Shown here piece by piece: positions 20,282 to 35,171 of a stretch of 64,000 nucleotides of DNA. The position numbers and the translations under genes were made by a program. This DNA is from Deltaproteobacteria bacterium (lineage in GTDB: Bacteria > Bdellovibrionota > Bdellovibrionia > Bdellovibrionales > JAMPXM01), in assembly GCA_017302795.1 (NCBI GenBank), contig JAFLCB010000009.1:1-64000 (forward strand), given 5' to 3'. Positions within the stretch are counted from its first letter, which is position 1. Every line of letters begins with the position of its first letter. The notes under the pieces were generated by a model that did no database searches, was not told where the DNA came from, and saw nothing but the letters and a program-made list of their open reading frames with translations.

Positions 20282-20461
20282 CTGGGTGCCAGACCTAGCA
20301 TGCAAGTCACGGAGGGAGAAGCAGTCTCTGCTTGAAATCTTAGCAATGTCAGGATTTGCAATTGGTTTTCTGAACGGTTTCCTAACTCGATCCCAACTCG
20401 CATTTTAAACCGTCAGCGCGATATGAAACGCCTGCTCGTTAACAAAGTCATCGGAGGTTTC

Positions 20462-21805
20462 GTGAAGAATTTTACCAAGATTGCCGCTCTAGCGGCGGGT
20501 ATGATGTCGGTTTTCGCGCTGGGATCAACGGCTAGCGCCGCTTGTCCAGCGGGACTTGACAGTCGTGGAGTCGTTTCAGGCAAAGAGATCTGCGCTTTAC
20601 GCGGGAAATACCTTAGCCAACAACTGACACTTACGTCAGGTCAGGATTATGTTTTAGAAGGTGGCGTTTATATTGGTGGCGATAACGCGTCAAATTCCGT
20701 GCTCTATATCGAGCCGGGAGTAAAAGTCTTTGGCCAATCAGGTGCTGACTTCTTAGTTATCACACGTGGATCGAGAATTTACGCTCAGGGCACTGCTCAA
20801 TCTCCTATTGTTTTCACATCTGCAAAGACTTCGGGCCGCAAGCGCGGCGAGTGGGGCGGATTAGTACTCAATGGAAACGCGACAATCAATGCTTGCAAAG
20901 CGGGCGCAACGGTTTGTGAAGGTGAAGGCGAAGGCGGTACTGGCAAATACGGTGGCACAGACGACGACGACAGCACCGGTATCCTAAAATATGTACGTGT
21001 TGAATTCGCTGGCTTCCCTGTTTCGCCAGATAACGAGCTCAACGGAATCACTTTTAACGCCATTGGCCGAAACACGATCGTAGATTACATCCAGGTTCAC
21101 ATGAACGCAGACGATGGAATCGAGTTTTTCGGTGGTACAGTTGCGGTGAAACACGTTGTTCTGAGCGGCAACGAAGACGATTCTCTCGACTGGGATTTTG
21201 GCTGGCGCGGTCGCGCTCAATTCGTCCTCATTCAGCAGTACTCTGATGCTGCAGATAACGGCTTTGAATCTGACAACAATAAATCACCACAAAATGCGTC
21301 GCCACGATCTTTGCCAACTTTGTCGAACGTGACGATGATTGGAGCTGAGACAAAAGGTGCTTATGGTATGCTGCTTCGAAAAGGAACTGGCGCTCGTTTG
21401 TCGAACATGCTGATCACCGGCTTTGCAAAAGCAGGGATCGACATCGATGACACAGAAACCTTCAACCACGGTGCTTCGGCTACTGGCGCGACGCTTGTTC
21501 CGTCTGGGTTGACGATGACGAACTCAATTGTCTTCAACAAAAAGAACTTCGAAGTCGGCGAAACAGACTCTACTGGTGCATTGATCCAAGAGCCATGGCT
21601 GATCGAATCTTGGTTTAAAACACAGGATGGCAACATGACTTCGGATCCAATGCTTGCGGGTTGGTTCCCGAAAGCAGGTAGCCCTGCTATCGGAGCCGGT
21701 GTTGCTTCGGAAGATACTTGGTTTGATTTTGTTGATTACGTCGGTGCTTTTGCTGATCAAAAAGATGATTGGACAAAAGGTTGGATTCAAACGGCACGTG
21801 ACTAA
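20462..21805 (+). CDS. Secreted right-handed beta-helix protein, partner of TonB receptor
   Basis: The product has 447 residues. GTG 20462 has GGAGG at 20453-20457 and starts a standard signal peptide (MKNFTKIAALAAGMMSVFAL, cleavage after TASA). Repeating short strands (VLYIEPGVKVFG, IVFTSAKTSG, VDYIQVHMNADDGIEFFGG, AVKHVVLSGNEDDSLDWD) fit a parallel beta-helix. Asp-rich loops (GGTDDDDSTG; NADDG; NEDDSLDWD) could bind calcium or another metal. Its stop overlaps the receptor start, so it is probably a surface or periplasmic partner in uptake of the same ligand. Confidence 0.75.
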   Translation: MKNFTKIAALAAGMMSVFALGSTASAACPAGLDSRGVVSGKEICALRGKYLSQQLTLTSGQDYVLEGGVYIGGDNASNSVLYIEPGVKVFGQSGADFLVITRGSRIYAQGTAQSPIVFTSAKTSGRKRGEWGGLVLNGNATINACKAGATVCEGEGEGGTGKYGGTDDDDSTGILKYVRVEFAGFPVSPDNELNGITFNAIGRNTIVDYIQVHMNADDGIEFFGGTVAVKHVVLSGNEDDSLDWDFGWRGRAQFVLIQQYSDAADNGFESDNNKSPQNASPRSLPTLSNVTMIGAETKGAYGMLLRKGTGARLSNMLITGFAKAGIDIDDTETFNHGASATGATLVPSGLTMTNSIVFNKKNFEVGETDSTGALIQEPWLIESWFKTQDGNMTSDPMLAGWFPKAGSPAIGAGVASEDTWFDFVDYVGAFADQKDDWTKGWIQTARD

Positions 21806-24800
21806 TTCAAAGGTACAAGTAAAACTGCGGATAGCGGTAAACTTAGCGGTGCTCGCAAAGACCTTTTCAGGTCTTGCAGGCATTGCCCGTTTCGGAGCAT
21901 CAGCTCTGGTTTACACCTTTCTGGGAGCGGCATTTTTCAGTGTTGCTTCTTTCGGTCAAACGCCAAGTCCGACTTCAAAAACATCCTTTCCTTCGACTGA
22001 GTTGAAAGGAAATGGCGTTCTTGAAATCAGTGTCTTTCGAGAGACGAAGGATGGATCACTCGTAGTTCTTGGTCAGCAAGAAGTCCTTGTTGATGGCATT
22101 TCAGTTTTAGTCGGAGAATCGGGTTTCCTTCGATTAGAAGTGAGTCCGGGTTTTCATAAAATAGGGCTGCCTTTGATCGAAGGTGATGTTCAGGTGGAAG
22201 TGGACCGTGATCGAACCGCGGTTGCTGTACTGCGGTTACGAGAAAAGCTGATCGTTGCTGACGTTGAAAACGCGTCAAGCCGATCTAGTGAATCTCCGCA
22301 AATGGACCTTGCGGTCGGCGGGTCAGCCGACCCGCTGGCTGGCCAAAAAACTGGCAAGAGAAAAATTGTGTTCAAAAACGCCGACGGTTTTCCGATCTCA
22401 TCGGCGCGGGTTTTTCTAGATGAACCAGACCGTGCCACCGGAAAAGATATTCTCGAATCCGACTCCAAAGGTGAAGTGATCATCGAAAATTCCCTGGGAT
22501 CAGGTTTCACAGTTACTCACCAACAATTCGAATCTCAATCATTTATTCCAGCCGGAGTCGCCGGCAGCCAAATGCCAGAGATCTTACTTACGCTGAAAGA
22601 AGCGACATCTGAGCTTGAAGAGGTGCGAGTGCTAGCTCCCGTGATTCGCGGCGGAATAAGTGCGCTGGTGGAATTGCGACGAAAAAATCGAGGGGTGGCA
22701 GAGGTCCTTGGTTCCGAACAAATGGCACGCACCGGGGACAGTGACGCGGCAGCTAGTCTTCGTCGAGTGACCGGACTGACACTTGTAGCAGGAAAGTACG
22801 TCTACATCCGAGGCCTCGGTGAGCGATATTCGTCGATCCTTCTGAACGACTCGACTTTGTCTAGTCCCGAACCCGCAAGAAGGGTGGTGCCGTTAGATCT
22901 ATTTCCCACCAACGTTCTTGAGTCTGTAGTCATTGAAAAGTCGTATTCGTCCGAGCTTCCCGGCGAGTTTGGGGGAGGAACAATCAGGATCGGTACAAAG
23001 CCAATCCCTGATCGGTTTTCGGCGAAGGTTTCTTTGGGTTTGGGATTCGGCGCAGATTCGCAAAGCTTAAGCTACGATGGTGGCCAACTAGATTTTTTTG
23101 GAATCGATGATGGAACCAGGCAACTGCCATCTCTCATTTCGGATCAGACCTCCGACGGACGGCGTTTAAAGGAGCAAAATCCGCTTTTCTTAAATGGATT
23201 TACAGCGACCGAATTACAGGCGATGGGTCGCAGCTTTAAAAATACGTGGTCAGCAACAGAAGACACTGTCACTGCTGTACCCAGCCTTAGCTTGTCAATC
23301 GGCAACCGATTTCAGCCAGCTCCGCGTTTTACAGTCGGCGGTCAGCTGGGGGCACTATTCGGATCAGATGCGGATTTTTTGGAAAAAAAGTCTACGCGAT
23401 ATTCGATTGGAAGCGGGGGGGGGCTAGTTTCGGACTCGGACTCGGTGTCGTTAGAAGCGACGAGAGAAGTTCGTCTTGCCGGCACCACTGACTTCGGCGC
23501 AAGTATGAAAACAACGGCCGGTGAACAAAAAGTGTCCTCGTCACTTTTGATTCTTCGAAACTCCGAAGACTCGGTGGCCTCAAGTAAAGAGTCAAACTCC
23601 AATGGGCGCTATCAGACAACCGACCTCAATTGGGTTGAACGACAACTTTTCATTCGGCAATTGAGAGGCGAACACGAACTAAAGCCTTTCACCGTTAAGT
23701 GGCGACATTCGTTATCAGATGCCAGCCGAATCGCCCCCGATAGCAGGTCGCATCGGTATATCTTTGAAAACGGTCGCTACGTTTTTTCTACGCGGGCAGA
23801 TGGAAATCAGCGCAGCTTTTCGCAGTTGAACGATCGAACGGTCGAGTGGGGCGCAGATATTAAATCGAGTCTAGAGACTACTGACTTGGGTCGGTGGGAT
23901 CTTAGTCTTGGGCTCGTCAAGACAGAGCGCACTCGAGCGTCAGGACTTCGTAGGTTTCACTTTCGCGATGTTCGTGGTCCCGGTTCGAATTTAGATCTAA
24001 CAAAACCTGTCGAAGAAATTCTCAACGAAGAAAATATTTCTCCGAATTCATTTCAGGTATTGGAAACAACGCGCGAAACCGACAATTATCGCGCGGGTCA
24101 GACCGTTCACGGACGGTCGGCTACACTGGATTGGATTCCACGTTCAGGAATTCGAATCTCCTACGGGGTTCGTCACGAAACTTCGGAACAAGACGTCCTC
24201 ACTTATAATTTGTTTGATCCCGAAAATAAACCGGTTAGAGCGGGGCTTTTTTCAGAGGATATTTTGCCAGCACTAGGCGCCTCGTGGGAGTTTGCTGTGA
24301 GCGGGTCGAGTCGCCAACAGTTAAGAACCACTTATTCGGAAACGGTGTCGCGACCTGACTTTAAAGAACTATCGACCGCGCCTTATACTGACGAGGAAAC
24401 TGGCCAGGAGATTATCGGAAATAGTCGTTTGCGCGGAGCGATTTTGAAAAATACAGATGTTCGGTACGAATGGTACATGAATACTGAAGAGTCATTATCC
24501 CTTGCGGTATTTCGAAAAGAATTTCAGCACCCGATTGAGCAAATAATCCGGCCTGGATCAGATGGGACTATCCGCAGTTTCGACAATGCAGAATCGGCCT
24601 TGAATACCGGGGTCGAGTTCGAAACCCGGATCAAACTTCGCCGGATCAGCGATCTATTGCGACGTTTGACGTTCGCCACGAACATTGCCTTAATCGAATC
24701 AACGGTCGAGCTGAGCGCGGGCAATCAAGGTGTGCAAACATCCAACTCTCGGCCCCTTCAAGGGCAATCGCCTTGGGTGGTAAACCTTCAGCTCTTCTAT

Positions 24801-25079
24801 GATCGGCCAACATCAAAGATAAATGCAGGTCTTTTGTTTAATATGATCGGTCCTCGAGTACGAGAGGCAGCATCGGGGGGACTTCCAGATCTCTACGAGC
24901 AACCAATTCAACAACTCGACGCGGTTGCATCTTGGTCAATGGCTGATCAGCCGTTCACCTGGCAATTGCGACTAAAAAACCTTCTTGATCCTGAAACCAA
25001 ATTAACTCAGGGCGATCAAACGGCACTTAGTTACCGTCGTGGTCGTGCGCTCTCTGTTTCAATGTCGGCGGTGTTTTGA
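21798..25079 (+). CDS. TonB-dependent outer-membrane receptor
   Basis: The product has 1093 residues. GTG 21798 overlaps the preceding stop by eight bases and gives a long signal peptide ending near SFGQ (about 55). A PEGA-like beta domain (about 75-150) and a carboxypeptidase-regulatory-like domain (about 190-260) follow, then a TonB-box-like LEEVRVLAP (about 273) and the plug with YVYIRGLGERYSSILLND and FGGGTIRIGTK. A barrel of about 680 residues ends in SMSAVF, the C-terminal Phe expected of outer-membrane proteins. The ligand is unknown; no Fur-box-like sequence was seen upstream of the operon. Confidence 0.88.
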   Translation: MTNSKVQVKLRIAVNLAVLAKTFSGLAGIARFGASALVYTFLGAAFFSVASFGQTPSPTSKTSFPSTELKGNGVLEISVFRETKDGSLVVLGQQEVLVDGISVLVGESGFLRLEVSPGFHKIGLPLIEGDVQVEVDRDRTAVAVLRLREKLIVADVENASSRSSESPQMDLAVGGSADPLAGQKTGKRKIVFKNADGFPISSARVFLDEPDRATGKDILESDSKGEVIIENSLGSGFTVTHQQFESQSFIPAGVAGSQMPEILLTLKEATSELEEVRVLAPVIRGGISALVELRRKNRGVAEVLGSEQMARTGDSDAAASLRRVTGLTLVAGKYVYIRGLGERYSSILLNDSTLSSPEPARRVVPLDLFPTNVLESVVIEKSYSSELPGEFGGGTIRIGTKPIPDRFSAKVSLGLGFGADSQSLSYDGGQLDFFGIDDGTRQLPSLISDQTSDGRRLKEQNPLFLNGFTATELQAMGRSFKNTWSATEDTVTAVPSLSLSIGNRFQPAPRFTVGGQLGALFGSDADFLEKKSTRYSIGSGGGLVSDSDSVSLEATREVRLAGTTDFGASMKTTAGEQKVSSSLLILRNSEDSVASSKESNSNGRYQTTDLNWVERQLFIRQLRGEHELKPFTVKWRHSLSDASRIAPDSRSHRYIFENGRYVFSTRADGNQRSFSQLNDRTVEWGADIKSSLETTDLGRWDLSLGLVKTERTRASGLRRFHFRDVRGPGSNLDLTKPVEEILNEENISPNSFQVLETTRETDNYRAGQTVHGRSATLDWIPRSGIRISYGVRHETSEQDVLTYNLFDPENKPVRAGLFSEDILPALGASWEFAVSGSSRQQLRTTYSETVSRPDFKELSTAPYTDEETGQEIIGNSRLRGAILKNTDVRYEWYMNTEESLSLAVFRKEFQHPIEQIIRPGSDGTIRSFDNAESALNTGVEFETRIKLRRISDLLRRLTFATNIALIESTVELSAGNQGVQTSNSRPLQGQSPWVVNLQLFYDRPTSKINAGLLFNMIGPRVREAASGGLPDLYEQPIQQLDAVASWSMADQPFTWQLRLKNLLDPETKLTQGDQTALSYRRGRALSVSMSAVF

Positions 25080-25756
25080 TGAAGAGCTGGTTGGCAGCAA
25101 TTACGTTTGTATATGGAATGATTGGTTGTGGGTACCATGACTCACGCTCGATCCACGATGCTCCTTCTGAAAAGCTATCTGACTCGAGGGCACTGACAGA
25201 AAAAGAAGAAATTCAGTCGGAAATCCAATCCGGTCGGGTTGACCTTTTGTTCGCACGAATAGACAACGGAATGAGCTTAGATTTTCGAGTTTCAAAGGGG
25301 AAGACGCTGCTCATGGAGGCAGCCGTATGGGGGCAGGTAGAAATTGTACGTGGCCTTCTCGCGCGCGGCGCCGATCCGCTGGCCATAGATGACGACGGAA
25401 AAACTGTTCGTGATCATGCCCTCGGCAACACTGAAATTCTTCGCCTATTGCCAAACGTATTGGATGCAGAAACTGTCTTTCGTATTTTTCTGCTCGTCGA
25501 GAATGGTGACTATCGTAAATTGAAAGCCGAACTTGATTCGGGCGTTGATCCAAATTTAAGAAATTCGGTTGGTGATACATTGCTGATCCATTCTGTACGA
25601 CGTGGAGTCCGATCGGTCGTTGCGACACTTGTCAGGTATCCTGGAATTGCTATTCAGGAACGAGATCAAAGTGGAAAAACAGCTCTTAAGATTTCTCGTG
25701 AATTAGGAAATGCGCAGATAGAAAAAGAATTGCTTGCCCGTGGTGCAACTGAATAG
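25079..25756 (+). CDS. Ankyrin-repeat lipoprotein in the TonB operon
   Basis: The product has 225 residues. ATG 25079 overlaps the receptor stop (TGATG). The signal peptide ends in GMIGC (lipobox). The mature protein has two ankyrin blocks: GKTLLMEAAVWGQVEIVRGL with LARGADPLAIDDDG, and GDTLLIHSVRRGVRSVVATL with a final ELGNAQIEKELLARGA. Ankyrins bind proteins, so this may tether or organise receptor, beta-helix protein or TonB in the periplasm. Finding it inside a TonB operon is unusual. Confidence 0.8.
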   Translation: MKSWLAAITFVYGMIGCGYHDSRSIHDAPSEKLSDSRALTEKEEIQSEIQSGRVDLLFARIDNGMSLDFRVSKGKTLLMEAAVWGQVEIVRGLLARGADPLAIDDDGKTVRDHALGNTEILRLLPNVLDAETVFRIFLLVENGDYRKLKAELDSGVDPNLRNSVGDTLLIHSVRRGVRSVVATLVRYPGIAIQERDQSGKTALKISRELGNAQIEKELLARGATE

Positions 25757-25766
25757 GAGTGGTGGT

Positions 25767-26390
25767 ATGGAAGAGAAATTTTTTGAAGTCGCTCACTTGG
25801 CTGATCGAGGCGTTTTGTATTTGCTCGTCATTCTAAGTTTGGTCAGTCTCCTCATTATAGTTGAACGGTATTTGACTTTGACCAAAGCAGCGAGGCGAGC
25901 CAGCGATTTGAATGCTGGAATTCAAAAAGTTTTGGCCAGCGCAAATCTCGAAAGCTATAAATCACTATTGGGAGTCGGTGGTGATTTGGAGAATCGGTCT
26001 GTAGATCTCGGTATTCAAGCGATCCGAGTTTCAGGAGCCCGAGGCTTAAGAGAATCGTTTGAAACGTTGATTCTCCTTGAGAAACCGAAGCTCGAGCGGT
26101 CGCTTGGATTTCTAGCTACGGTCGGAGCAAACGCTCCCTATATTGGACTTTTCGGAACCGTGCTTGGAATCATGAAAGCATTTAAAGATCTCGGCGGCGC
26201 TTCGGAAGGTGGGCAAGGTGCAGTTATGGCCGGAATCTCTGGCGCGTTGATCGCGACCGCAGCCGGGCTCATGGTTGCGATTCCAGCAGTCTTGGCATTT
26301 AACTACTTTCAAAAGCTAGTAAAACAAGTCGTTACAACGATGGAAGCGATTCGTGAACTCGCAGTGATAGTGGCCGAAAGAGGCTCGTGA
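25767..26390 (+). CDS. exbB: ExbB/TolQ-type proton channel protein
   Basis: The product has 207 residues. AGGAG at 25757-25761 precedes the ATG. Three membrane segments in the MotA/TolQ/ExbB pattern are visible: about 14-34 (VLYLLVILSLVSLLIIVERY), about 125-148 (GANAPYIGLFGTVLGIMKAF) and about 160-185 (SGALIATAAGLMVAIPAVLAF). The family signature GLFGTVxGI is present. With ExbD it forms the proton-driven motor that energises TonB. Confidence 0.92.
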   Translation: MEEKFFEVAHLADRGVLYLLVILSLVSLLIIVERYLTLTKAARRASDLNAGIQKVLASANLESYKSLLGVGGDLENRSVDLGIQAIRVSGARGLRESFETLILLEKPKLERSLGFLATVGANAPYIGLFGTVLGIMKAFKDLGGASEGGQGAVMAGISGALIATAAGLMVAIPAVLAFNYFQKLVKQVVTTMEAIRELAVIVAERGS

Positions 26391-26800
26391 TGGCTAGCAA
26401 AGCTTCAAGTGATCAAGACGTCATCGCTGATATAAACATTGTTCCCTTGGTCGATATTATTCTTGTCGTTCTGATTATCTTCATGGTTACGGCGACCACG
26501 TTTTCTGGAAAGGAAGTAGAAGTCGAGCTTCCAAAGGCTTCTAGCGGAGGAGATACTTCAGCTGCGCCGCTAACGGTTCAAGTGAACTCGGTAGGTCGGT
26601 TTTTTGTTAATGGAATTGAGATTGATGAATCGGCCTTGCGTCTTGAAGCGGAAAAGAGATCCGCCCTGAACCCCGAGAGTCAGGCGGTAATTTCGGCTGA
26701 TACGGCTGCGGCACACGGCGCAGTAGTTCGAGCGCTTGATGCAGTGAAGTCAGGTGGAATAGCGAAACTTGCGGTTTCGGTTGAAGGAGAAAGCCAGTGA
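26390..26800 (+). CDS. exbD: ExbD/TolR-type biopolymer transport protein
   Basis: The product has 136 residues. ATG 26390 overlaps the ExbB stop (TGATG). One N-terminal membrane helix carries the family signature INIVPLVDIILVVLIIFMVT, with the conserved Asp (VDI) that relays protons. A short periplasmic domain with the typical ISADTAAAHGAVVRALDAVK block follows. It works with ExbB and TonB encoded next to it. Confidence 0.93.
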   Translation: MASKASSDQDVIADINIVPLVDIILVVLIIFMVTATTFSGKEVEVELPKASSGGDTSAAPLTVQVNSVGRFFVNGIEIDESALRLEAEKRSALNPESQAVISADTAAAHGAVVRALDAVKSGGIAKLAVSVEGESQ

Positions 26801-27549
26801 TTCGACTTTTATTGTTGGTCGTATTTTTGATTTCTGGACGTCCTGTGCAGGCAATGGATGGTGGAGGTTCGGCCGATTCATTGGATCAGATAATGAACCT
26901 TAGACTTGAAGTTGAAGAGAAAAATACTTTGTGGGAGCAGGAAAAAAAACGCCTTCAAGGCGAATACGAAACGTTGGTTAATAGGGTCAACGAAGTTCAA
27001 GCGGACGTGTTAAGAAAGCGCTCGCAGCTGGAAGTCTTACAGGCCCGTCGGGCATCATCCCAGAAAAGATCTGAACGTCGACAAACTGTCAGTGGGCTTG
27101 ATCGGAAAAACCTGGTTGACGCTGTAGCGGAATTCAAAACCGTGACAGACGGAAGCATGCCGTTTGGAAGAAGCGAACTGCGGATAAAGCTAAATGGTAT
27201 CGCACGGGACCTTTCTGAAGGGCGTGGATCGGTTGACGAAGTCGCGACTGACTTCGCTCAGCTCATAAAATCTGAATTGAAATTGTCCCGAGGGTTTCAT
27301 CTCGTAAAAGAAGAAATTCAAATCCAAAACGAAACCGTCGCGGTTGAAGCCGCTCTTGTAGGAAGCTACACGGCTTTCTTTGCTTCCGCGGATGGGCGAG
27401 TAGGTAAGTGGAATCGGGAAGAGCGCCGCGCACAATGGATCGATGACGAAAAAGAAAAAGTTAGTACGTTGAAGCGTCTAGAGATCGTAAGGCAATCTTT
27501 GCCCGGCAATCGGCCTGTCATCCTTGATCTTGATCTGGAGGCAAAATGA
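26797..27549 (+). CDS. DUF3450-like periplasmic coiled-coil protein
   Basis: The product has 250 residues. The GTG start overlaps the exbD stop (GTGA). The signal peptide is MIRLLLLVVFLISGRPVQA. Residues 25-100 are heptad-rich coiled coil; the C-terminal part holds VEAALVGSYTAFFASADGRV and RRAQW, which resembles the end of DUF3450 proteins. In marine TonB2 operons a DUF3450 protein accompanies TtpC, ExbB2, ExbD2 and TonB2, so the context supports this reading. It is probably an accessory of the TonB motor. Confidence 0.7.
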   Translation: MIRLLLLVVFLISGRPVQAMDGGGSADSLDQIMNLRLEVEEKNTLWEQEKKRLQGEYETLVNRVNEVQADVLRKRSQLEVLQARRASSQKRSERRQTVSGLDRKNLVDAVAEFKTVTDGSMPFGRSELRIKLNGIARDLSEGRGSVDEVATDFAQLIKSELKLSRGFHLVKEEIQIQNETVAVEAALVGSYTAFFASADGRVGKWNREERRAQWIDDEKEKVSTLKRLEIVRQSLPGNRPVILDLDLEAK

Positions 27550-28331
27550 AGAATACGTTGTTGGTTTCGTTGTTGTCCATTTTTGCGCTTTTTTCGTTTG
27601 GAATGATTGGTTCCGCTGGCGCGAATACTGGCAGTGAAAATTCTAGCCAAGCCCAAATTGTCGCAAAAGAAGCTGCAGCACTCCAGTCCTTGAAGCACGG
27701 CCTCGATTTACAGATTTCGCAACTTATACGGGCCCACGAACAAAAAATGCGGTCCAAACAGTCTCAGTTGCAAAGCCTGCAAGCCGAACTTAATCGACTG
27801 AATGTCGAATTTGACGATGCACAGAGTAGCTTCGATGAATCTGAAAAAAGGTCGAAAGCGCTGGCAGCTGGTGGCGGATTAGAGTCGGCGACGAAGGATT
27901 TACGCAAGACACTTGAAGCTTATGAAGCAAGAGCACGAAAGACGGCACTCTCTATTGATTCCATGCGGGCATTTCGCGATGAAGCATCCGAAGCGATTAA
28001 GATTTTAAAACGCTCAACACAAATTCGTGAAGAAGCCGGTGCTTTTAAACTTAAAGACGGAACGGTCACTCAAGGTGGTCTTAAATGGTACGGAGAAACC
28101 GCTGTTTTTGGTAAGTCTGAAAAAGGCTTATTTGCGCTGGGACCTGATGGCGTCGGCGGGTGGCTTGCGCTCGATTCTAAGGCAGCTGTTTTTTCTGATT
28201 TGCGCTCGAAAGTCGATGTTTCGATGGTAGCCACCACGTCCGACAAATTGGCGGGACTCATACCGATTCTTTGGCTCGGACTTTTGGGAATGGCCGTGAG
28301 TTGGCTGTTTGTATCGATTGCGAAGCATTAA
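27546..28331 (+). CDS. TtpC-like periplasmic coiled-coil protein with C-terminal anchor
   Basis: The product has 261 residues. The ATG overlaps the previous stop (ATGA). A signal peptide ends near AGANT; residues about 35-155 are coiled coil; a small beta region (LKDGTVTQGGLKWYGETAVF ... LFALGPDG) follows, and a final membrane helix (LIPILWLGLLGMAVSWLFVS). This is the architecture of the N-terminal periplasmic half of TtpC, which in Vibrio-type TonB2 systems is fused to an ExbB domain. Here ExbB is a separate gene, so this is the unfused module. Confidence 0.65.
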   Translation: MKNTLLVSLLSIFALFSFGMIGSAGANTGSENSSQAQIVAKEAAALQSLKHGLDLQISQLIRAHEQKMRSKQSQLQSLQAELNRLNVEFDDAQSSFDESEKRSKALAAGGGLESATKDLRKTLEAYEARARKTALSIDSMRAFRDEASEAIKILKRSTQIREEAGAFKLKDGTVTQGGLKWYGETAVFGKSEKGLFALGPDGVGGWLALDSKAAVFSDLRSKVDVSMVATTSDKLAGLIPILWLGLLGMAVSWLFVSIAKH

Positions 28332-28335
28332 AGCC

Positions 28336-28968
28336 ATGATGAATTTCCGCTCTCTCACCTTTGTTGGAAGTGCAATCGGTGTTCTTGCCATTGCAGCTCT
28401 GTGGATCGCACTGGATGTGAATCCTGTGACTCCAGGATTTTTGAAAGAGAAACCGTTTCTTAAAGCAGCTTCCAAGAAAAAAAAGCCAATTGAAATTGAA
28501 GAAGTGCATAAGCCAGCACCGAAAGTTCAGGAACAACTTGCCGCCCCTCGTTCAATTGCGAATTTGAGTCAGCTTCGGCCTCAGGTCTCTTCTGCGTTGA
28601 AAGGTTTTGGCGAGGGGAGCGGCGGATTCGGCGGCGATTTTGATGAGGCAGGTGGGCAGGGCGGAACAGCTAGTGCCGCGGTGGATAAGGCCGGAATTGA
28701 AAGATTGGCGAAGGTAATTAAGAGAGTCGAACCGCGTTTTCCTCAAGGTGCTCGCGAAAAAAATGTTTCGGGATTTGTTGTAGTTGAAGTGCAAGTATCG
28801 ACGGCTGGTCAACCAGTGAGAGTGCGTGTCGTCGAATCACAGCCGTCCGGCGTTTTTGATGCGTCGGCCATCGAGGCAATGCAGTCTTGGGTATTTGAGC
28901 CGGCAATGGTTCGTGGCCAGCCCGTTGCAAGTCAAGTTGTTCAGCGGGTTCGGTTTGATCTTGAATAG
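28336..28968 (+). CDS. tonB: TonB energy-transducing protein
   Basis: The product has 210 residues. The ATG at 28336 (or 28339) gives an N-terminal anchor (SAIGVLAIAALWIALDV) and a Lys/Pro-rich segment (KKKKPIEIEEVHKPAPK), shorter than in E. coli. A Gly-rich linker (about 95-120) leads to the TonB C-terminal domain: PRFPQGAREKNVSGFVVVEV, VRVVESQPSGVFDASAIEAM and W-F-EPA. It transmits ExbB/ExbD energy to the receptor encoded upstream. Confidence 0.92.
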   Translation: MMNFRSLTFVGSAIGVLAIAALWIALDVNPVTPGFLKEKPFLKAASKKKKPIEIEEVHKPAPKVQEQLAAPRSIANLSQLRPQVSSALKGFGEGSGGFGGDFDEAGGQGGTASAAVDKAGIERLAKVIKRVEPRFPQGAREKNVSGFVVVEVQVSTAGQPVRVRVVESQPSGVFDASAIEAMQSWVFEPAMVRGQPVASQVVQRVRFDLE

Positions 28969-28983
28969 CGGAACGGAAAAAAA

Positions 28984-30291
28984 ATGAATTTCCTGAAACT
29001 TTGTTCGTTATCACTTTTGGTCCCAGTGCTATTTGCTGCAACCATTGCGTCTGCCTTTGTTCGATCTGAGATTCCTGATAGTTATGATGACTATGAAGGT
29101 ATCGATCTCGCCGTCAAACTCGCAGAAGATGGAAAGTTTAAGCTCGCCGACAGAGTTTTAAAATCAACCACGAACGAAAAGAAAGATTCCGACCTCAGAT
29201 CGCAAGCCAATCGGGAACGAGTGCTTGGCCTTTTACTAGAAGAAAGTGCGAAGGGAAAAAGTGATCTTAAAAATGCATCGGTTCACTTTGAAAACGCAAT
29301 TAGGATGTTCGGGTCTCCAGTTTTTTACTTTGATCAGCAGCGAGTTGATTTGGCACGAATGGACTATTCGAGTTGTGTTGAAAGTGTTCGAGGGCTGAAA
29401 AGTCGTTTTCCGTCCGAATTGCCCAATGCCACGCCAACAAGAATTCGAACCGCAGTTAAGTGCTTTCGATTGGTGGCGGAACAAAGTGCGAGGAAGGATG
29501 GTCAGATTCTGCGCTCGGAAGCGCTCGCGCTGTTAGATCGCGCGGTAAAGCAAAATCCAACGCTTCTGTTGAATCCTGTGATCGCCTCAGAGCGAGTGGA
29601 AGTCCTAGCTGATCTCGGATTTAGGTATGTGTCTGCCGAATTGGCAATCGAGACGATGAAGGGAATGTCAAATGCTGGACAAAAGGGGATTTCTAATTTT
29701 GGCTTAGACATTGTCGATCGATTGAAGCTTGAGTCCGGATTTTTAGCTCGTCATTTTGCAGAAAAGATATTGCAAGCCGCGCTGGTCTACTCGCCCTCAG
29801 GTGAACAAGAAGATGTGTTAGCGGCGATGGCGAAACTTTCTTTTTCGAACGGCCAAACTTTGGCTAGCGCGACGGCGTTTGAAAAGCTTTCTAGCTACAA
29901 TTCAGAATCGAAGAGCCAGGTGTATCTTGCCTCAATAGAGCTTTATCGGCTGGCAGGGTGGCGAAGTCATGCGAATCAACTTGTTCAGCGAATCGAAGAT
30001 CCCAAAGATCGATTGCGGGCTCGTGTGTCAGGGTTTTTTGAAAGGGATGAGACGGCGAAGATCGCTGCTATGTTCCCTTCGCTTGATCGTCATCTCCTTA
30101 GTGACGAGGAGTGGGTTTATTTGGGTGCATTCGCAAGACTTCAATCCGGTGGCTGGCAAGAAGACGGTCCAAACGCACCCGTTAAATGGTTGGCCAGACT
30201 GAAGCGCCCCGAAAATCGTGAAAAAGCCGCGGTGCTTCGGCAGCTTGTCGCTGATTGTAAGTCGAACCAGGGACCAGCCTGCACCCTCTAG
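28984..30291 (+). CDS. Periplasmic helical-repeat protein of the TonB operon
   Basis: The product has 435 residues. The signal peptide is MNFLKLCSLSLLVPVLFAAT, cleavage after IASA. The rest is alpha-helical with repeat-like pairs (LAEDGKFKLADRVL; LAAMAKLSFSNGQTLASATA), consistent with degenerate TPR/Sel1 repeats. TonB2-type operons commonly end with a TPR protein, so position and fold agree. It is the last gene of the TonB operon; 155 bases separate it from the next start. Confidence 0.7.
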   Translation: MNFLKLCSLSLLVPVLFAATIASAFVRSEIPDSYDDYEGIDLAVKLAEDGKFKLADRVLKSTTNEKKDSDLRSQANRERVLGLLLEESAKGKSDLKNASVHFENAIRMFGSPVFYFDQQRVDLARMDYSSCVESVRGLKSRFPSELPNATPTRIRTAVKCFRLVAEQSARKDGQILRSEALALLDRAVKQNPTLLLNPVIASERVEVLADLGFRYVSAELAIETMKGMSNAGQKGISNFGLDIVDRLKLESGFLARHFAEKILQAALVYSPSGEQEDVLAAMAKLSFSNGQTLASATAFEKLSSYNSESKSQVYLASIELYRLAGWRSHANQLVQRIEDPKDRLRARVSGFFERDETAKIAAMFPSLDRHLLSDEEWVYLGAFARLQSGGWQEDGPNAPVKWLARLKRPENREKAAVLRQLVADCKSNQGPACTL

Positions 30292-31872: not shown

Positions 31873-32790
31873 ATGCGATTGACGAAGATGGCGACAGTTT
31901 CTTTGACGGTGCTTTCGGTCATTCTGTTTCAGAACTGTGATGGTGGGTTTGCTGCGAAATCATCAATAAATGCAGGCATTGACGATCACAGCGGCGAATC
32001 TGTTTTTTCCGCTGACGGGGATCTCTACTTTTTTGGATTTGCGAAATCAAAGATCGATGATCCTACGGTTCAGCAACAGCGTGCGGTTGATGCAAACACC
32101 AGGGTGGCGGGTGCGATCTCCACGTGGGATCGTTTTGCAATGGATGTTCTAAGTGAGGTTGTCACAAGTGATCAGACCCAGCTGACAGTCGACAAGAGCG
32201 TCGTCACAGATCGATTGAGGTCTTATGCAGCCGACTTGAAGTCTGACGACACGCTCGTTGTCTATTCCCACTCACACGGAGTTAAAAATCGAATTGCAAA
32301 CAATGGCACTCTCGTTGAAGGCGGATTATTGGTGGGCATCGAACAAGGTGTCGGAAAGATGACTTGGTCAGAATATGCCGAACTTCTTTTAGACCTGCCA
32401 GCTAAGAACGTGATTGTCTTCACGATGGCTTGCTATTCCGGCAGTCTGGTTGATGTTTTGAAATCTCCAACTTTTAAGTCGCGCTGGGAAAACAGACAAA
32501 AAGAAGGAAGAAGTTTCGTTCTTGTTACCGCCCAAAATTCTGACTTATTATCTGGGCCGGCGAACATCAATGGCGTCATGATCAATGCGCTACCCTACGC
32601 CATCGAGCAAGCTTTTGCCGGTAAAGCCGATGGACACAAAGATGACCGCTTTCAGGGGATCGCTGACCAGCGGCTGACGCTGGGTGAACTCGTGTACTAT
32701 ACTCTCTACACCTCGCGAACAGCTGGCATCGGAAATACTAACGATTCACAGATGATTGGTTCATTTAACCCGGACCTTTTTCTGAAGTGA
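31873..32790 (+). CDS. Caspase/legumain-like (clan CD) lipoprotein
   Basis: The product has 305 residues. A run of G before the ATG is the ribosome site. The signal peptide ends in a lipobox, LFQNC (Cys23). The mature part shows the clan CD cysteine-protease pattern: hydrophobic strand then His (DTLVVYSHSHGVK, about residue 137) and hydrophobic strand then Cys (NVIVFTMACYSGSLVDVL, about 187). C13 (legumain) and caspase-like families share this His-Gly / Ala-Cys-x-Ser-Gly layout. It is a predicted outer- or inner-membrane-anchored peptidase; substrates are unknown. It is convergent with the kinase gene. Confidence 0.75.
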   Translation: MRLTKMATVSLTVLSVILFQNCDGGFAAKSSINAGIDDHSGESVFSADGDLYFFGFAKSKIDDPTVQQQRAVDANTRVAGAISTWDRFAMDVLSEVVTSDQTQLTVDKSVVTDRLRSYAADLKSDDTLVVYSHSHGVKNRIANNGTLVEGGLLVGIEQGVGKMTWSEYAELLLDLPAKNVIVFTMACYSGSLVDVLKSPTFKSRWENRQKEGRSFVLVTAQNSDLLSGPANINGVMINALPYAIEQAFAGKADGHKDDRFQGIADQRLTLGELVYYTLYTSRTAGIGNTNDSQMIGSFNPDLFLK

Positions 32791-33002: not shown

Positions 33003-35171
33003 CTACCTCTTAAAGGTGGAAAGCTGAGTGTTCAGATTGCCGGTTCTTGTGTACTTGCGTCCGGGCGAGGATTTGGATTTAAATTCTTCGACTTGAATTT
33101 CATAACTTGTGAGAATACCGCCTGCGCTTAGGTATCCGTAAGATTCTTTGATTCGATGGGTAAGGACACCAGACCCATCAAACACCTCGCGGTCACATTC
33201 TATATACCAAAGCGGCTGATTCAGATCCTGAAACTTTATTGAGGTCATAGTAGTGGGGCGGCAGGAAGTGTTTTCTGTACTTCCAGTAACTGTGTCTTTC
33301 ACTTTCCAAAGTCTTGTTTCTCCGACTTCAATACGTTCAGGACGCAAAGTATTCGAGCTTTCAGCTATGTTAGTTTCCGACACCGAATTGATAGGATTAA
33401 AAAAACCGTCAAGCGGCAACGCCTGAATTGACATGGAGACTCTTCGCCTCTCGTTGTGCATCCAAAGAAGTCGGCCGTTCTGAATATCAATTAAGTCGCG
33501 CCGTTCTTGAAACTCTTGGGAGGGCTGGTTGTTGTCAGTCAATTTAGCGTCGTAAACAAGCCGAAGGCCAGGTTTCAAAGCCCAAAAATGTTTCAGGATT
33601 TCGTTAACGCGATTTTGACTGGGTGGCGAAATCAATACCGGCCGGCCGTCCTCTGCAGGTTTGCGCGTGCGGATCGTTTCACGAAACTTTTGAGTGAAGT
33701 AAAAGATCGCTCCTGCAGTTATCGCTATGAAGACAGACCCTGCTAGCAGACGTTTGATTACTGTCGGACTTTCGCTGTTTTGATTGAGTGGTGTTTTTCG
33801 CGATTGCGTTCCGTTCGTTGCGCGGACACGGTCGCTAATAGCACTTCTTTCAATCGGCGTCGTAACTGGGGGCGGTGTACCCATCAGCGCTGTCTTCGGT
33901 TTTCGGTTCGCACGATCGATTGACGTGACTGGACTTGCGGCGGCCGCAAGCATATCTGTTTTTAGCCGTGCTTGACGTGCCATCGCCGCTTCATATCTCG
34001 CGCTCTTAAATGCACTCAGAGTCTGCGAAATGACGCTTTCTTCGACGTCTATCGGCAGACCCGATTTTAGTCGATTGTCTTTTTCAGTTATCAAGTAGTC
34101 TTCGACACCTTGTAGAACGAAAATCAAATCCTCATCGGCAATCAAGTGAGCTTTTAGCTTCTCCAGCAAATCTTTAGACCACATGACATTCAAATCAAGG
34201 CGGGACTTTCGGTTTAGTAGGGCCGGCCACTGTGCGTCTGCGCGCACCTTTAAAAGTTTCTGTGAAAGCTCGGATGCAGAAGTTGGACGTTTAGCGGGAT
34301 CCTTTGAAGTAACCTGATTGATGAGTTTTATAAAACCAGGTGGAGCGATATCGAGGGCCGCATCTGACCATGCTAGAGATTCTTCGGAAACTCGTCGCAT
34401 CGTTTCCGCAAGGGAGGGCGTCTTAAATGGTGTGGCGCCATTGATAATTTCCCAGATAATCAACCCGACCGCATAGAGGTCGGTTTGCACGGAGGAGTGT
34501 GCGCCAAGAAGAGTTTCTGGAGCAAGGTAGTTGACGGTACCGATGATCATGCCGGTCTTCGTTTTGAAACCGCGCTCAGCGGTTTCAGATTCGTTTGTCC
34601 CAAGGGAGCTTGGTTTTGCGATACCGAAATCGATAATTTTTGCTACGCCATCGTGAGTGATCATGATGTTTGCGGGCTTCAGATCTCTGTGTATCACACC
34701 GTGTTTGTGAACTGCATCGAGACCCTCACAAATCTGAATTGCAATGTCGATAACATCTGGAAATGATAGTCGTCTTAATCGGCCGAGCTTGTGGAGAGAA
34801 ACACCTTCGATGAACTCCATTGAAATGTAGTGTTGCCCGCTCTGTGCGCCACCTGTGAACTGTCCCCAGTCAAAGAGACGAACGACGTTGCGATGTTGAA
34901 TGGGGGAAAGGGCTCGAGCCTCGGCTTCAAAACGTTTAAGGACCTCTTTGTCCTGCATGAGGTCAGGGGACAATGTTTTTACTGCGACGGTTCGTGGCTC
35001 TTTGCAATGCGGATCTTCGGCATCAAAGAGTGGATTGAGGCAAAGAAACACTTCCCCCATTCCGCCCTCGCCAAGGTGACGGATGATTTCGCGCGGCTCC
35101 TTGGAAACCGGAAGTGCCTGAATGCTCGAGGCATCCATGATCGTCGTTTTAACATCGTCAGCTGTAGACAT
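33003..35171 (-). CDS. Membrane Ser/Thr protein kinase
   Basis: The product has 722 residues. The cytoplasmic kinase domain (about 28-310) has GEGGMGEV (34-41), the VAVK lysine (Lys65), HRDLKPAN (161-168), DFG (181-183) and APE (217-219), so all catalytic residues are present. A roughly 20-residue insert separates the glycine loop from the lysine. After a linker, one membrane helix (about 475-493) leads to a C-terminal region of about 230 residues, predicted periplasmic, beta-rich, with two Cys. This is the PknB-like receptor kinase layout; the signal sensed is unknown. Confidence 0.9.
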   Translation of the reverse strand: MSTADDVKTTIMDASSIQALPVSKEPREIIRHLGEGGMGEVFLCLNPLFDAEDPHCKEPRTVAVKTLSPDLMQDKEVLKRFEAEARALSPIQHRNVVRLFDWGQFTGGAQSGQHYISMEFIEGVSLHKLGRLRRLSFPDVIDIAIQICEGLDAVHKHGVIHRDLKPANIMITHDGVAKIIDFGIAKPSSLGTNESETAERGFKTKTGMIIGTVNYLAPETLLGAHSSVQTDLYAVGLIIWEIINGATPFKTPSLAETMRRVSEESLAWSDAALDIAPPGFIKLINQVTSKDPAKRPTSASELSQKLLKVRADAQWPALLNRKSRLDLNVMWSKDLLEKLKAHLIADEDLIFVLQGVEDYLITEKDNRLKSGLPIDVEESVISQTLSAFKSARYEAAMARQARLKTDMLAAAASPVTSIDRANRKPKTALMGTPPPVTTPIERSAISDRVRATNGTQSRKTPLNQNSESPTVIKRLLAGSVFIAITAGAIFYFTQKFRETIRTRKPAEDGRPVLISPPSQNRVNEILKHFWALKPGLRLVYDAKLTDNNQPSQEFQERRDLIDIQNGRLLWMHNERRRVSMSIQALPLDGFFNPINSVSETNIAESSNTLRPERIEVGETRLWKVKDTVTGSTENTSCRPTTMTSIKFQDLNQPLWYIECDREVFDGSGVLTHRIKESYGYLSAGGILTSYEIQVEEFKSKSSPGRKYTRTGNLNTQLSTFKR

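Follow-up and report, generated by a model that had tools for sequence, protein, structure and literature searches.

The window analysed here is the whole stretch of 64,000 nucleotides at the beginning of contig JAFLCB010000009.1 (assembly GCA_017302795.1), which comes from a bacterium of the phylum Bdellovibrionota, a relative of the predator Bdellovibrio. It carries, at 20462-30291 on the plus strand, nine open reading frames that encode a TonB-dependent outer-membrane receptor, a secreted beta-helix protein and a TonB motor. The gene set and order are those given in a preliminary description of the locus, which had read it as a nine-gene TonB2-like operon. The features are as follows.

20370..20398, plus strand: Pho-box-like tandem repeats with an 11-bp period, CTGAAC-N5-CCTAAC-N5-CCCAAC, upstream of the operon (expectation-maximisation motif search, position weight matrix)
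20462..21805, plus strand: secreted protein of 447 amino acids, a right-handed beta-helix of the ElpS/Fjoh_0546 type (GTG start, Shine-Dalgarno sequence GGAGG)
21849..25079, plus strand: TonB-dependent receptor of the outer membrane, in which two beta domains at the N-terminus precede a segment resembling a TonB box, the plug and the barrel (Pfam, structure model)
25079..25756, plus strand: ankyrin-repeat lipoprotein (Pfam, lipobox-like N-terminus; mechanically called TTG start at 25076)
25767..26390, plus strand: stator subunit of the ExbB type, resembling TolQ/ExbB and distinct from the TonB2 type (Pfam, tree, approximately unbiased tests)
26387..26800, plus strand: ExbD-type stator subunit (Pfam, tree)
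26797..27549, plus strand: TtpB-like protein (DUF3450), an exported coiled coil (Pfam, 49.1 bits)
27546..28331, plus strand: TtpC-like protein lacking the MotA/ExbB channel core, in which a signal peptide and a coiled coil are followed by a beta linker and a single membrane helix at the C-terminus (alignment with fused TtpC)
28336..28968, plus strand: TonB (Pfam TonB_C)
28984..30291, plus strand: TtpD-like repeat protein (related by profile to TPR proteins that occupy this position elsewhere; no Pfam match of its own)

The Pfam searches recognised the Plug domain of the receptor (4.4e-8), the ankyrin repeats (3.7e-15), MotA_ExbB (3.5e-32), ExbD (3.7e-26) and TonB_C (8.4e-19). The first coiled-coil protein matched DUF3450 with 49.1 bits against a cut-off of 32.6, so that the TtpB gene, a feature of the Vibrio-type TonB2/TonB3 operon, is present. 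No Pfam family was obtained for the beta-helix protein, for the second coiled-coil protein (coiled-coil noise below the cut-off only) or for the repeat protein; the latter has no TPR match of its own, yet it shares a common profile with TPR-matching proteins. The TonB2-like gene content noticed earlier is supported. The Pfam and NCBIfam scans of ten proteins revealed no SusD-type family that could serve as a lipoprotein lid. A lipobox-like N-terminus is present in the ankyrin protein in 17 of the 18 listed rows, and GTG 21849 is a likelier start of the receptor than the mechanically called TTG 21654. Four of the eight joints between the genes overlap (TGATG at 25077-25081 and 4-base overlaps at 26387, 26797 and 27546), while the other four have gaps of about 5-45 bp, so that the earlier wording, according to which the joints mostly overlap, was slightly generous. 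Scans for sigma-70 promoters and terminators stayed at the chance level.

The receptor is present in 20 of 98 near genomes, its own included, and in none of four congeners; among 368 genomes of the phylum, 41 carry the beta-helix gene. We inspected 40 of these 41 beta-helix clusters (the window, 16 and 23 more; G094 was left out), and the motor genes were found in the same cluster in all 40, as far as the contigs reach: a contig end cuts the clusters L252, L254, L255, L259 and L262, and the receptor loci L045-L047 stop short of the beta-helix gene, the beta-helix contigs of those genomes being L259-L261. Since the gene set recurs in every inspected cluster, its recurrence is beyond chance. Relatives with the receptor and motor genes apart, which would have refuted the preliminary description, were not encountered, and the idea that the motor is dedicated to the built-in receptor has gained in strength.

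The clusters fall into two architectures. In architecture A (17 clusters, including the window) the order is beta-helix, receptor, ankyrin, ExbB, ExbD, DUF3450, coiled coil, TonB and repeat protein. In architecture B (23 clusters) the beta-helix gene is followed by DUF3450, TtpC (coiled coil and channel domain in one protein), a second ExbB, ExbD, TonB, a TPR protein and the receptor, mostly then by the ankyrin gene; one B cluster, L249, has the variant order motor, receptor, beta-helix, ankyrin. The order of architecture B is that of the Vibrio TonB2 operon as given in passages of PMC6957404, and Pfam concurs. In a receptor tree of 50 rows, the A rows form one clade (97) nested within the B rows of the phylum (99), with the B loci L033/L034 as sister (95); when all 17 A rows were used, A again made up one side of a branch (97). 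Judging from this nesting, B is the ancestral arrangement, and A arose once within the phylum.

Outside the near genomes, a scan of named genomes found 585 relatives, from which 79 distinct loci were kept. A receptor lies nearby in 68 of the 79 and a complete motor in 19, of which 16 are of type B and three of type A, the latter (L049-L051) being duplicates of contigs in the near set; type B was also met on two plasmid records. The receptor and beta-helix genes are thus linked to a TtpB/C/D motor, with the canonical gene order, in gamma-, beta- and deltaproteobacteria and in other groups, so that, contrary to what had been supposed, the pair built into the operon is not peculiar to this locus; the ankyrin gene was seen in Bdellovibrionota-type loci only. 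In Poribacteria a conserved protein of 176 aa, assigned to no family, comes after the pair, and a TonB/TolA-like protein is found nearby, possibly a further motor arrangement (L093 11175-11705 and L095 13216-14091; kin occur in 13-14 loci).

The motor of architecture A differs from the Vibrio type in its TtpC-like protein and its ExbB. First, the second coiled-coil protein aligns with TtpC from the coiled coil over the beta linker to the first membrane helix, after which it stops; this was the case in all 11 A rows (11/11). Pfam gave no MotA_ExbB match in the window protein, and the channel domain of Vibrio-type TtpC is missing. As the alignment indicates, this domain was lost in A, which left the protein as a coiled coil with a single helix in the membrane. 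Second, the window operon has a single ExbB, the second, ExbB2-clade channel protein of the Vibrio-type operon being absent. An ExbB tree was built from 65 rows, among them 23 of TtpC and 21 of ExbB2, the short ExbB2 rows L048 and L057 having been left out. The A ExbB joins an orphan ExbB of the host genome there (94), and a branch of 98 sets it on the TolQ/ExbB side, apart from TtpC and ExbB2. Approximately unbiased tests rejected a grouping of the A ExbB with TtpC (p 0.0007), with ExbB2 (p 0.034) and with both (p 0.043). The ExbD tree agrees in separating the A from the B types, and the A ExbD shares 41% identity with the ExbD of the orphan pair vs. 23% with the B ExbD. The ExbB stator thus appears likely to come from another lineage.

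A competing explanation of the motor is simple fission, with the window ExbB representing a detached TtpC channel domain or an old ExbB2 and no foreign stator involved. It would fit the retention of all the other TonB2-type genes in the operon; furthermore, two of the three ExbB tests, including that against ExbB2, reach p 0.03-0.04 only, and a single clade of the A and B types of ExbD was not rejected (p 0.37). The firm rejection of the TtpC grouping, the place of the A ExbB beside the orphan and behind the branch of 98, and the ExbD identities speak against fission, and we consider it unlikely. The preliminary description was right in that the TtpC-like module and ExbB are separate; the best reading of this separation is, however, a loss of the channel domain together with a different ExbB, not a simple gene split.

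Two further observations concern the motor proteins. The orphan ExbB-ExbD pair (L144 4589-5728), which includes the nearest kin of the operon's ExbB, has no adjoining TonB or Tol genes. The N-terminal half of an Alteromonas TtpC (L227 16302-17666) shows a weak DUF3450 match of 31.3 bits, just below the cut-off of 32.6, and the coiled coils of TtpB and TtpC may be paralogs.

What the system transports is suggested by the known relatives of its beta-helix protein. According to passages of PMC2996285, the Caulobacter genes elpS (cc0170) and cc0171, the latter encoding a receptor, precede type II secretion genes; ElpS is an extracellular, type II-exported lipoprotein that is made and secreted under phosphate starvation and stimulates alkaline phosphatase, and the authors suggest that ElpS and CC0171 form a functional pair. 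Passages of PMC8115612 describe a Flavobacterium johnsoniae phoBR operon in which the receptor Fjoh_0545 and the lipoprotein Fjoh_0546 are strongly up-regulated on phosphate depletion; homology of the Fjoh_0546-like lipoproteins with the Caulobacter protein is noted there, and their function is given as unknown. Among our distant loci, seven from alphaproteobacteria carry the beta-helix and receptor genes followed by recurring neighbours, among which GspC, GspD, GspE and GspF were confirmed in sample proteins, thereby reproducing the elpS-cc0171-gsp order. The likeness to ElpS is by description, with these type II secretion-linked homologs standing in for the CC0170 sequence.

The neighbourhoods of the distant loci point in the same direction. 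Family models scored over their cut-offs near the beta-helix gene for PhoB in L066, L084 and L111, for PstB and PhoU in L066, for PstA in L071 and for PstC in L121 and L127; L074 and L087 have PhoB-like regulators below the cut-off, L074 also having Pst-like neighbours by similarity. These loci belong to gamma-, beta- and alphaproteobacteria and an acidobacterium. On the Alteromonas macleodii plasmid pBGP9 (NZ_OX359244.1), the record annotation reads phoB, phoR, a phosphate-binding protein, an oxygenase, a hypothetical protein (the beta-helix protein) and a receptor, and continues with DUF3450, two MotA/TolQ/ExbB proteins, ExbD, TonB and TPR. The host genome of the window has pstCAB-phoU with, on the same contig, a paired response regulator and kinase; these two, pstB and phoU were read by eye.

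A link to phosphate is also seen in the promoter region. An expectation-maximisation search of 22 Bdellovibrionota regions upstream of the beta-helix gene yielded direct repeats resembling CCTAAC-N5-CCTAAC, with a log-likelihood ratio of 115 vs. 57.6-68.5 in eight shuffled sets. The motif is shared with the pst promoters: it was found upstream of the organism's own pstC (p 0.002) and in a congener (22.2 bits), and at p<=0.05 in 11 of 20 longer pst upstream stretches, nearly always just before the first gene of the operon. Upstream regions of pstC alone gave 1 significant case in 30 (L203, from the same genus), because pstC is not the first gene in most genomes. A position weight matrix derived from the pst sites in turn recovered the motif in 17 of the 22 beta-helix upstream regions and in 11 of 16 further loci that had played no part until then; the window site at 20381 has p=0.004 in its own upstream region and rank 5 among 127,966 placements across the whole window. 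The p values for pstC, the pst stretches and the pst-derived matrix were obtained with mononucleotide shuffles, and those for an E. coli Pho scan with dinucleotide shuffles. In that scan, made with the E. coli Pho consensus, 27 of the 94 regions upstream of a beta-helix gene had a box at p<=0.05 vs. about 5 expected, several of them from related Idiomarina. We propose CCTAACANAATCCTGACA, an 11-bp direct repeat unlike the E. coli box, as a candidate Pho box of the Bdellovibrionota; it is present at L138 5826-5843 and in the pst upstream stretches L206-L208, L211, L213, L218 and L219, and resembles the Bacillus PhoP and cyanobacterial SphR boxes.

Taken together, the match of the pair to ElpS-CC0171 and Fjoh_0546/0545, the phoB, pst and phoU neighbours and the motif common to pst promoters suggest that the ligand class is likely phosphorus, not metal. 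We think it probable that the operon encodes an outer-membrane uptake system induced by phosphate starvation and driven by a motor of its own, a hybrid with a single origin in the phylum. Several observations weigh against this proposal, in addition to the modest ExbB and ExbD tests given above. The motif is not significant in 9 of the 20 pst stretches and in 5 of 22 and 5 of 16 beta-helix upstream regions; the pst-derived matrix was built from sites chosen with the beta-helix matrix, so that the two sets of counts are not fully independent; and an exact-pattern scan of the genome gave 6 sites vs. 3 for the reversed control, the pst site alone being interpretable. An E. coli-type Pho box was found in none of the Bdellovibrionota loci (window p 0.88), and the best regulator of the host genome reaches 201 bits with the PhoB model against a cut-off of 296. 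In Caulobacter, cc0171 is reported in passages of PMC2996285 to be constitutive, and its deletion left ElpS production intact. The PhoB model itself was not informative for the near set, matching in 98 of 98 genomes searched and over the cut-off in none. As for the literature, titles and the opening lines of abstracts yielded no tie of a TtpB/C/D motor to phosphate, and the passages of a B. fragilis PhoB paper hold no mention of TonB.

The beta-helix protein deserves closer description. Its AlphaFold model (mean predicted local distance difference test, pLDDT, 89.6) matches solved right-handed beta-helices, in agreement with the fold assigned earlier from the letters; the matches include NosD of NosDFY (Z 23.3, root-mean-square deviation 3.5, 282 aligned), AlgE4, AlgG and Pel9A. 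A sequence search of this protein and the receptor against solved structures gave no match at E 1. An acidic ladder, D217, D218, E221, D239, D240, D243 and E269, with a spacing of about one coil, is invariant in 79 of 79 distant loci; because it is conserved and coil-spaced, we would guess at a metal-bridged anion site. Cys28 is conserved, and the residue preceding it varies (E, D, N, V, A), so that no lipobox fits. GspD is present in the host genome, which makes type II export of the protein possible. The beta-helix protein of Idiomarina, Aliidiomarina, Marinobacter, Alteromonas and others has about twice the score or two to three times the length, as if the domain were repeated (L068, L070, L073, L089, L092, L096, L120, L226 and L227). 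The receptor model (pLDDT 79.0) comprises two N-terminal beta domains, a flexible segment, a plug and a barrel; the flexible segment contains the TonB-box-like LEEVRVLAP, and the solved kin found with Foldseek are ordinary TonB-dependent transporters.

Three other functions were weighed against phosphorus uptake. The receptor and motor might secrete or display the beta-helix protein, as a phosphatase activator or a depolymerase, without importing any nutrient: according to excerpts of the Myxococcus literature, the TonB-dependent receptor Oar is required for PopC secretion, ElpS is described as extracellular and stimulating alkaline phosphatase, and the beta-helix and receptor genes are always adjacent or nearly so. 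Such a TonB route of export is, however, unneeded, as ElpS uses type II secretion, homologous pairs adjoin gsp genes and the host genome has GspD, which leaves this function with a rather small probability. Less probable still is that the system supplies the cell with carbon from a phosphorylated or anionic polysaccharide, on which the beta-helix protein would act as a lyase or binding protein; the closest solved beta-helices do include alginate and pectate lyases and epimerases, but a common fold does not show function, the acidic ladder is kept across phyla in phosphate-linked contexts, and no carbohydrate genes were recognised by eye among the recurring neighbours. Least credible is an operon for iron or another metal induced by its limitation, with a siderophore or metal-chelate receptor as in Vibrio, where TtpB, TtpC, TtpD, ExbB, ExbD and TonB of the TonB2 system serve iron uptake according to literature excerpts: the best Foldseek matches of the receptor are iron, haem and copper transporters, though such proteins dominate the solved set, whereas the promoter, in which no Fur box was sought, has a motif common to pst promoters, Pst/Pho neighbours occur in several phyla and the known relatives of the beta-helix partner respond to phosphate in the passages cited above. 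On this evidence, phosphate starvation is the likely inducing condition within the broader metal or nutrient limitation initially suggested.

The phosphorus uptake system that we favour would work as follows. At low phosphate, a PhoB-type regulator would bind the 11-bp repeats at 20370-20398 and switch the operon on, as the shared motif suggests. The beta-helix protein would be exported, possibly by the type II secretion system of the genome, and would capture a phosphorus-containing ligand outside the cell, perhaps via metal ions on the stacked acidic residues. The ligand would then be handed over to the adjoining TonB-dependent receptor, the pairing being indicated by the conserved linkage. 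ExbB-ExbD would use the proton gradient to drive TonB, with the TtpB-, TtpC- and TtpD-like proteins probably forming a periplasmic scaffold between the stator and the receptor, by analogy with Vibrio genetics, and the product would pass to Pst. The hybrid motor would have kept the TonB2-type accessory genes and lost the TtpC channel domain, an ExbB of another lineage replacing the TonB2-type pair of channel proteins.

In passages of PMC6957404, the Vibrio TonB2/TonB3 operons are given as TtpB-TtpC-ExbB2-ExbD2-TonB2-TtpD, the TonB3 operons opening with a receptor gene; the function of the TonB3 cluster is stated as unknown in passages of PMC10734418. Just as in these operons, DUF3450, a TtpC-type coiled coil, ExbB, ExbD, TonB and a repeat protein are combined in the window operon, and the receptor gene within it recalls TonB3. 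Unlike them, the window has one ExbB, probably of another lineage, instead of two channel proteins, a TtpC without channel domain, another gene order, the built-in receptor, beta-helix and ankyrin lipoprotein genes, and a promoter motif common to pst in place of a Fur-type setting. The system would work like the TonB2 type yet lacks defining features of that family. With Caulobacter ElpS-CC0171 it shares the gene for an extracellular protein of this family type beside a TonB-dependent receptor gene, but the genes described next to that pair in passages of PMC2996285 are those of type II secretion, not of a dedicated motor, and ElpS is a lipoprotein, whereas the window beta-helix protein has no conserved lipobox. 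The pair Fjoh_0545/Fjoh_0546 likewise joins a receptor to an ElpS-like lipoprotein; the passages of PMC8115612 name no TonB motor genes, and the N-terminal domain of that Bacteroidota receptor is of the carboxypeptidase type (pf13715). The A. macleodii pBGP9 cluster likewise has the beta-helix, the receptor and a full TtpB-TtpC-ExbB-ExbD-TonB-TPR motor in a row; it differs in its canonical fused TtpC, two channel proteins, lack of an ankyrin gene, a beta-helix protein of 1356 aa and the preceding genes for phoB, phoR and a phosphate-binding protein.

The host genome contains 12 MotA/ExbB-type genes and four plug-domain matches (three over the cut-off), and its single DUF3450 gene is that of the operon. 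A second, ordinary TonB cluster (receptor, TonB, ExbD, ExbB) lies about 90 kb downstream on the same contig (L143 1387-5483), and tolQRAB-like genes, recognised by gene order and sequence without a family search, are located elsewhere (L145). Downstream of the operon, the window carries a lipoprotein-like reading frame with a caspase-like look at 31873-32790 and, on the minus strand at 33003-35171, a serine/threonine protein kinase with a C-terminal extracytoplasmic part, both recognised by eye.

A broader reading, which we put forward tentatively and at slightly less than even chances, is that the TtpB/TtpC/TtpD TonB motors include a large unnamed branch for phosphorus uptake, powering ElpS-type pairs in many phyla, to which Vibrio TonB3 may belong, and that TtpC is at heart a non-channel scaffold, whose channel domain was removed and which was put on an ordinary ExbB-ExbD stator and has persisted in that form in at least five families. 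Porins are generally regarded as the way by which phosphate enters through the outer membrane; an energised route with a dedicated motor, if true, would alter this picture and explain the ElpS/CC0171-type pairs. The role of TtpC in Vibrio is unclear, and a natural system without its channel half makes the scaffold idea directly testable. The proposed Bdellovibrionota Pho box would allow the phosphate regulons of the phylum to be mapped. Finally, because the Vibrio TonB3 operon also opens with a receptor gene and its function is stated as unknown, membership in the phosphorus-uptake branch may serve as a concrete hypothesis for that cluster.

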